From: Limimaricola variabilis
GTDB taxonomy: Bacteria; Pseudomonadota; Alphaproteobacteria; Rhodobacterales; Rhodobacteraceae
Reading direction: 5' to 3'
Length of the DNA stretch: 64,000 nt
NCBI RefSeq assembly: GCF_014195545.1
Contig: NZ_JACIBX010000002.1
Location: forward strand, 372,001 to 436,000
In this document: positions 57,054-57,733 of the stretch, in pieces
Layout: each line of letters starts with the position of its first letter
Numbering within the stretch: the stretch's first letter is position 1
Program-made: the position numbers and the translations under genes
The notes under the pieces: model-generated
Told to the model about the DNA's origin: nothing
What the model saw: the letters and a program-made list of their open reading frames with translations, nothing else
Database searches by the model: none

Positions 57054-57683
57054 ATGCCTCCCGATTTTACCTCCGAAACCCTCGCCCATGCGCGCGGCCT
57101 TGCCCGGATCTGTGGCGTCGACGAGGTCGGGCGCGGCCCGCTGGCCGGGCCGGTCACGGCGGCGGCAGTGATCCTCGACCCCGATCGCATCCCCGATGGC
57201 CTCGACGATTCGAAGCGGCTCACGGCGCGGCGCCGCATGGCGCTGGCCGAAGAGCTGCACGTCGTGGCCGAGGTGTCGGTCGCGCATGCCAGTGTCGATG
57301 AGATCGAGACCCACAATATCCTGCGTGCCGCGCAGCTGGCGATGATCCGCGCCATCGCCGGGCTGCGGGCTCCGCCCTGCCATGTGCTGGTCGATGGCAA
57401 CATGGTCCCGCGCGGCCTCAACCATCCCTGCGAGACGCTGGTGGGCGGCGATGCGCGGTCGCTGTCGATCGCCGCGGCCTCGATCGTCGCCAAGGTGGCG
57501 CGTGACGCGATCATGGCGCAACTGGCCCGTGAGCATCCGGGTTACGGCTGGGAAACCAATGCGGGCTATGGAACGGCCCAGCACAAGGCTGCCCTACTGG
57601 ATCTGGGGGTTACGCCCCACCATAGGCGAAGCTTCAAGCCTATCCACAACATCTTGTATCAAGGCGCAATCGCAACTGACTGA
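57054..57683 (+). CDS. rnhB: Ribonuclease HII
   Basis: 209 residues. The active-site acidic residues are in ICGVDEVGRGPLAGPV (DEVGRG) and HVLVDGN, plus the C-terminal SIVAKVARDAIM region. It removes RNA from RNA-DNA hybrids and misincorporated ribonucleotides. It lies directly upstream of ccrM, as in many alphaproteobacteria. CTATCCACA (57640-57648), a one-mismatch DnaA box, falls inside its last codons. Confidence 0.93.
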   Translation: MPPDFTSETLAHARGLARICGVDEVGRGPLAGPVTAAAVILDPDRIPDGLDDSKRLTARRRMALAEELHVVAEVSVAHASVDEIETHNILRAAQLAMIRAIAGLRAPPCHVLVDGNMVPRGLNHPCETLVGGDARSLSIAAASIVAKVARDAIMAQLAREHPGYGWETNAGYGTAQHKAALLDLGVTPHHRRSFKPIHNILYQGAIATD

Positions 57684-57733
57684 TTCGAAAAAGTTTTTGA
57701 CACCGACTCACCTCTGACTCATATTTATCCACA
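57682..57733 (+). promoter_or_regulatory. ccrM promoter with three GANTC sites and a DnaA box
   Basis: TTGACA (57697-57702) and CATATT (57720-57725), spaced 17 bases, form a promoter. GANTC sites are at 57682-57686 (GATTC), 57705-57709 (GACTC) and 57716-57720 (GACTC); the last two lie in the spacer, the third touching the -10. A perfect DnaA box TTATCCACA (57725-57733) follows at once. The start codon is 57775. Elements are seen; regulation is inferred. Confidence 0.65.

Follow-up and report, generated by a model that had tools for sequence, protein, structure and literature searches.

The ccrM locus of Limimaricola variabilis raises the question of how an N6-adenine methyltransferase gene can be timed when CtrA, the driver of Caulobacter ccrM, has no site at its promoter. 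CtrA-driven ccrM promoters with TTAA-N6/7-TTAA are of the Caulobacter and Brucella type. Direct reading of positions 57600–57774 of the window, meaning the whole 64-kb stretch of DNA that was analysed (64,000 nucleotides), revealed no TTAA and thus no CtrA-type site at the ccrM promoter. A fixed, methylatable promoter is a testable answer to the question of CcrM timing. The features of the locus, with promoter positions given relative to the inferred transcription start at about 57732, are as follows.

57054–57683, plus strand: rnhB (ribonuclease HII), an open reading frame directly upstream of ccrM (PF01351, E 4e-46).
57682–57686, unstranded: site S1, GATTC, inferred −50 to −46.
57688–57692, plus strand: A-tract between S1 and the −35 element (columns 81–97% A in 148 promoters).
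57697–57702, plus strand: −35 element TTGACA, read directly and recovered by a sigma70 consensus scan.
57705–57709, unstranded: site S2, GACTC, inferred −27 to −23; its reverse strand, TGAGTCG, fits YGAKTCG.
57716–57720, unstranded: site S3, GACTC, inferred −16 to −12, with the final C (57720) doubling as base 1 of the −10 element.
57720–57725, plus strand: −10 element CATATT, 17 nt of spacer from the −35, read directly and recovered by the consensus scan.
57725–57733, plus strand: predicted DnaA box TTATCCACA, a perfect consensus, inferred −7 to +2.
57742–57753, plus strand: leader hairpin GCGG-GCCA-CCGC in the inferred 5′ leader.
57762–57766, plus strand: Shine-Dalgarno-like AGAGG, read directly.
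57775–58884, plus strand: ccrM, 369 aa, an N6-adenine methyltransferase with a RAMA domain (ATG at 57775; PF01555, E 7e-64; PF18755, E 5e-18).

Against the NF050803 CcrM model the protein scored E 5e-191 and 634 bits, below the model cut-off of 830. The rnhB gene lies 5′ of ccrM in 110 of 110 loci inspected, and in the window its TGA stop (57681–57683) overlaps S1. The consensus scan returned a sole sigma70-like promoter in 57600–57900, with 10 of 12 matches (0.1 in shuffled sequences). The original prediction had described TTGACA-N17-CATATT with a GATTC upstream and TTATCCACA starting at the last −10 base, and direct reading confirmed these letters. It had also placed two GACTC in the spacer; both sites are present, but the second shares its last C with the −10 element and so overlaps it, and what lies between −35 and −10 is all of S2 plus S3 minus its last base.

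GANTC is depleted more than threefold in the window (87 seen against 291 expected from dinucleotide shuffles), and S1–S3 form its only GANTC triple within 39 bp. The triple had been judged far above chance. It is indeed the only one, but a hand estimate from 87 GANTC in 64 kb gives a chance expectation of about 0.1 such triples per window, and by this estimate the cluster, taken by itself, is no more than mildly unusual. The window holds exact TTATCCACA at two places and, with at most one mismatch allowed, four matches against 2.3 expected; the DnaA box alone is not significant locally. For both cluster and box, significance emerges in the comparison with relatives. The second perfect box (52518–52526, minus strand) stands between two genes of the minus strand: it follows a LacI-type regulator ORF (52611–53636) and precedes by 38 bases the start of a PAS/histidine-kinase-like ORF (51473–52480), both named by eye. 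A further sequence one mismatch from a DnaA box, CTATCCACA, lies inside the 3′ end of rnhB at 57640–57648, 85 bp upstream of the start-site box. Also named by eye, the reading frame at 61678–62592 encodes a DsbA-like protein whose N-terminus carries a long EAEAEA-type repeat.

Within the Rhodobacteraceae, a CcrM match at E 0.001 was present in 196 of 198 genomes, although in a few of them the match was only weak. The family panel comprises the best 150 of these 196 matching genomes, from 149 genera, and the most diverged CcrM copies are absent from it. TTGAC was found in 149 of the 150 ccrM promoters, S2 (as TTGAC-N3-GANTC) in 140, S3 (GANTC at TTGAC+19, its last base opening the −10) in 140, and S1 (GANTC 14–16 bases before TTGAC) in 136. 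The sites could have been absent from relatives, and here the original prediction withstood comparison: all three stand in register in 122/150 promoters and at least one GANTC lies within 130 bp in 149/150, leaving one promoter without any. A separate panel of 80 named loci, counted apart since it may share genomes with the family panel, had the full triple in 62 and no GANTC within 130 bp in five. Promoters lacking GANTC over that distance thus number 6 of 230 (L005; L032, L035, L039, L078 and L095). Three of them, L005, L035 and L039, have lost TTGAC and all GANTC upstream of ccrM while keeping a CATCNT −10 and the leader hairpin. By eye, an inverted repeat of the form CAAC-N7-GTTG or GCAAT-N6-ATTGC is common to all three at a −35-like TTGC, and perhaps another regulator took over ccrM in these lineages.

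Alignment of 148 anchored promoters (L005 and L288 were excluded as not anchored) gave a consensus order of TGATTCA (S1), A-tract, TTGAC, CGAATC(G/A) (S2), TGACTCA (S3) and a CATnnT −10. The variable base of GANTC has a site-specific preference, for T at S1, A at S2 and C at S3. The way this alignment was built forces TTGAC to 100%, and the choice of anchor was slightly helped by A at −11 and T at −7; anchoring on a unique TTGAC-N3-GANTC alone nevertheless gave A at −11 in 139/139 and T at −7 in 139/139. A GAGG, AAGG or GGAG lies within 20 nt of the ATG in 143/148 family loci.

One reading of these sites is that they are by-products of the rnhB TGA, a preferred spacer, the CA of the −10 or an overlapping operator. 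The C of S3 is base 1 of the −10, LexA operators can overlap GANTC, as PMC7987155 warns in its text, and the first GANTC shares the rnhB stop codon in 52 of the 104 loci that have a GANTC. In the other 52, however, rnhB ends further upstream and GANTC persists. S2 lies in free spacer, yet its G, A, T and C are 95–98% conserved in the 148 promoters with N left variable; anchoring favoured TTGAC copies with S2, but the 140/150 count holds without any anchor choice. The composite also recurs in other families although the window DNA avoids GANTC. A by-product origin is already disfavoured by these comparisons, and we regard it as very improbable.

The arrangement is also rare within genomes. TTGAC-N14-GANTCA-N3-T gave 106 matches in 83 of 100 family genomes, and with a further GANTC at +8 it gave 76 matches in 76 of the 100, never two per genome. 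The ccrM promoter was confirmed as its location for 65 of the 76, the remaining 11 falling outside the promoter panel. In the genome of the window, TTGAC-N14-GANTCA occurs a single time, at ccrM. Since the composite is found at most once per genome, it looks like a promoter private to ccrM and not a general class. Two shorter patterns were rejected as genome-wide signatures: GANTC-N6-GANTC alone (nine places, against nine for the reversed control) and TTGAC-N3-GANTC alone (four places, against 10), the latter occurring outside ccrM at L150 (base 1501), L152 and L153.

Other families of the Alphaproteobacteria were represented by 68 loci from 68 different non-window families, being 68 of the best-scoring 69 genomes with G281 omitted. 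GANTC stands at TTGAC+19 in 26 of them (dinucleotide shuffles, mean 0.05, maximum 1), and these 26 have A at −11 in 26 and T at −7 in 25. All three sites occur in approximate register in 15/68 and at least two in 31/68 (shuffles, 0), leaving 37/68 with fewer than two. The design may go back to an ancestor of much of the class, and it is dispensable, as these 37 loci and the six of 230 promoters without GANTC indicate. A CtrA-type TTAA-N6/7-TTAA was present in 4/68 class loci, L155 among them, against a shuffle mean of 1.7 and maximum of 6. At the level of the aligned DNA, the comparison shows that the positions, motif types and register of these predicted CcrM target sites are conserved in the family and can still be made out in other families of the class. 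The proposal that CcrM controls its own promoter is partly supported in this way, the prevalence of the full triple pointing to a selected architecture.

The flanks of the sites point to a candidate reader for one of them. YGAKTCG, the motif needed for GcrA activation in Caulobacter according to a proposal by others that is relayed in the Discussion of PMC7987155, fits 118 of 140 family S2 sites, two of 115 S1 sites and one of 140 S3 sites, with a background of 19 of the 87 GANTC in the window. The window's own S1 (TGATTCG) fits as well, unlike nearly all family S1. Among Caulobacter promoters, GANTC lies at −24 of podJ P2 and −29 of ctrA P1, and a timed group of promoters is marked by GANTC between −35 and −10, as described in passages of PMC4287350; no extended motif was found at Brevundimonas GcrA targets, according to the text of PMC7987155. 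GcrA is encoded in the genome of the window (G000:C3:58680-59258, E 1.7e-47), and GcrA (PF07750) was matched in 196 of 197 family genomes.

Across the class the picture is less uniform. GcrA (PF07750) was matched in 72 of 115 genomes, 70 of them over the cut-off, and S2- or S3-like sites occurred at 31/52 class loci with GcrA versus 10/16 without a match over the cut-off, the latter including G198, whose match falls below it. A permissive search of 11 of those 16 genomes again gave none over the cut-off while recovering the positive control, G239. GcrA sequences are divergent and matches to them often come in fragments; some may therefore have been missed. By hand count, the S2-like site fits YGAKTCG at 11/26 class loci where GcrA was found and at 2/9 where it was not. 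In these counts the presence of sites does not track GcrA across the class, which would argue against GcrA as the sole reader: either GcrA was missed in some genomes, or methylation acts without GcrA as well. Six genomes of the Rhodobacteraceae (G014, G029, G059, G102, G109 and G157) have a GcrA match, yet their methylase matches are weak throughout (E 1e-7 to 1e-28); they apparently lack a CcrM orthologue, with incomplete assembly a possible cause (G157 is 80% complete).

These class counts bear on a second interpretation, in which methylation represses directly without GcrA. N6-methyladenine at S2, and above all at S3, would weaken the promoter; it would be active when hemimethylated after fork passage, and CcrM would then shut its own gene, giving a negative-feedback pulse. 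S3 lies in the sigma70 contact region and keeps its exact −10 register in the 26 class loci described above, it almost never carries the extended GcrA motif, and sites persist in 10 of the 16 loci where GcrA was not found. Precedents are available in passages of two papers: Caulobacter ccrM is described as active only when hemimethylated (PMC2217572), and Agrobacterium CcrM represses gcrA, which has six GANTC in its upstream region (PMC11514494). Direct repression leaves unexplained, however, why YGAKTCG is concentrated at S2 alone, and GcrA is present in all but one of the 197 family genomes. We consider it a rather unlikely account, though one with a real chance of being correct.

The original prediction also held that DnaA could respond to replication at the box on the start site. 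The box occupies the same register in both members of the genus examined (L001, and L002, which is G107) and recurs in the family, but it is optional and falls outside the core design. Over the scanned region, exact boxes occur in nine of 148 promoters (column-shuffle mean 0.05) and boxes with at most one mismatch in 23 (mean 2.2). At −7 to +2, in either orientation, seven exact and 12 one-mismatch boxes (19/148) compare with 0.03 and 0.88 expected when columns are shuffled independently, an expectation that ignores the relatedness of the genera. Outside the 148-promoter panel, L288 carries TTATCCACA two bases further downstream.

Such matches might have no DnaA function if TTNTCCNCA is simply a sequence that the start region tends to have. 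Conservation of T at −7 and of A at +2 has other causes and eases a match; exact boxes are few; and in the 150 genomes of the family panel the box shows no association with missing GANTC sites. A trade-off between the box and loss of S2 or S3 was accordingly rejected there (Fisher 0.29 for exact boxes, 0.72 within one mismatch); the same test in the 80-locus panel gave 0.16 and 0.03, and the trade-off is not taken as established. Against a functionless match stand the excess over expectation and the use of both orientations. Distances to the box or its reverse complement at this register are bimodal, both orientations occupy the same nine bases, and the two commonest of the 122 distinct 9-mers are a box and a reversed near-box. 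On a FastTree phylogeny of 110 loci (CcrM plus RnhB), at least five changes are required to explain the eight exact rows and at least 10 to explain the 16 within one mismatch. This count is blind to gain versus loss, and the rarity of the box suggests that gains predominate. We therefore think a functionless match unlikely. A predicted DnaA box that spans the start site would most simply mean repression.

Just after the inferred start, 123 of 148 leaders can form a stem of at least four Watson–Crick pairs (shuffle mean 39, maximum 55), with hairpins of four to six pairs built from 47 distinct arm pairs. Covariation was assessed in 41 leaders, the window plus 40 of 53 distinct leaders, hand-shortened blind to stems. 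In these, pairing holds in 85.4% of cells, both sides are altered in 10 cells and the covariation score reaches 0.203, each equalled in 0 of 500 shuffles, whereas two of the five measures were unexceptional (44 and 66 of 500 shuffles as high); slid versions scored at most 0.056 each. A chimera control (58/123) is weak because the 123 had been selected for stems, so the claim is carried by the shuffle control and the covariation test. Rfam gave two matches in 57600–57900, both far below the gathering score and outside the leader, and hence no known leader family; a literature search on ccrM and hairpins gave no title on a ccrM leader among the matches listed. The hairpin probably adds mRNA stability or translational control.

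We hypothesize, with a probability of roughly 60%, that ccrM is transcribed from a methylation-autoregulated sigma70 promoter at which GcrA reads S2 and DnaA acts as a start-site repressor in some lineages. The three CcrM target sites would be placed so that the enzyme's own product tunes ccrM transcription. Methylated S2, centred on −25, would be read by GcrA riding on sigma70, which would help to open the weak −10 (CATnnT rather than TATAAT), while S3, which overlaps the −10, and S1, on the upstream side of the A-tract, may contribute methylation sensitivity of their own. Passage of the fork, leaving hemimethylated DNA, and subsequent remethylation by CcrM would shift the strength of the promoter once in each cycle. 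In some lineages, including the genus of the window, DnaA bound at the start-site box would obstruct RNA polymerase and keep ccrM expression low for as long as DnaA is active. According to passages of PMC8116508, ccrM tends to be near ori in Rhodobacterales; early hemimethylation of the promoter would follow, and a block by DnaA would postpone its firing. We infer the direction of each of these regulatory effects from the arrangement of sites. If the proposal holds, CcrM senses at its own gene the methylation that it has produced, and DnaA, the replication initiator, serves as a brake that is optional and has changed several times, so that the rewiring of a core cell-cycle node becomes measurable.

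A broader and more tentative reading, possible but on balance doubtful, is that of an ancient, one-per-genome self-sensing promoter whose −10-fused GANTC acts on the sigma70 open complex with or without GcrA, with DnaA repeatedly wired in as a start-site gate and the hairpin as an extra layer. It would amount to a natural methylation memory or pulse circuit in which the DnaA gate keeps ccrM off during initiation.

Control of ccrM by GcrA and by DnaA has each been predicted before (PMC7987155, PMC2877005). In its section on ccrM, PMC7987155 ranks the gene as a likely core GcrA target outside Caulobacterales that was lost within Caulobacterales, and our results agree that ccrM is a likely target of this kind. 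That survey differs in accepting the extended motif anywhere from −200 to +100, with one species per order in 13 orders, and the section describes neither promoter geometry nor S1, S3 or a DnaA box. The text of PMC2877005 predicts DnaA motifs 5′ of ccrM, chiefly for alphaproteobacteria without CtrA sites at ccrM; its matrix hits are given there without position, whereas the box described here lies on the inferred start and recurs at that place. Passages of PMC3667746, PMC3973325, PMC6473078 and PMC9836097 say nothing about the ccrM promoter. The fixed architecture, site-specific flanks, recurrent start-site box and covarying hairpin were not found in the literature searched, which mostly left subscription papers outside.

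The closest natural parallels are the Caulobacter GcrA/CcrM promoters (ctrA P1, podJ P2, mipZ and ftsZ), which likewise are sigma70 promoters with GANTC between −35 and −10; the L. variabilis genome similarly encodes both GcrA and CcrM, and its S2 carries YGAKTCG. Unlike them, the promoter here has three sites in fixed register, one fused to the −10, its target is ccrM itself, and the 76 genomes with the composite each have a single copy. The Caulobacter ccrM promoter resembles the present one in carrying GANTC, with two sites reported, and in depending on methylation state, as described in parts of PMC10073500 and PMC2217572, but it is driven by CtrA, for which the window promoter has no site. 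As presented in the text of PMC5458116, a synthetic CcrM memory operon shares with our proposal the principle of a CcrM that sets its level of expression by methylating the promoter from which it is transcribed; that circuit relies on an engineered zinc-finger repressor in E. coli, whereas the promoter described here is a natural one.
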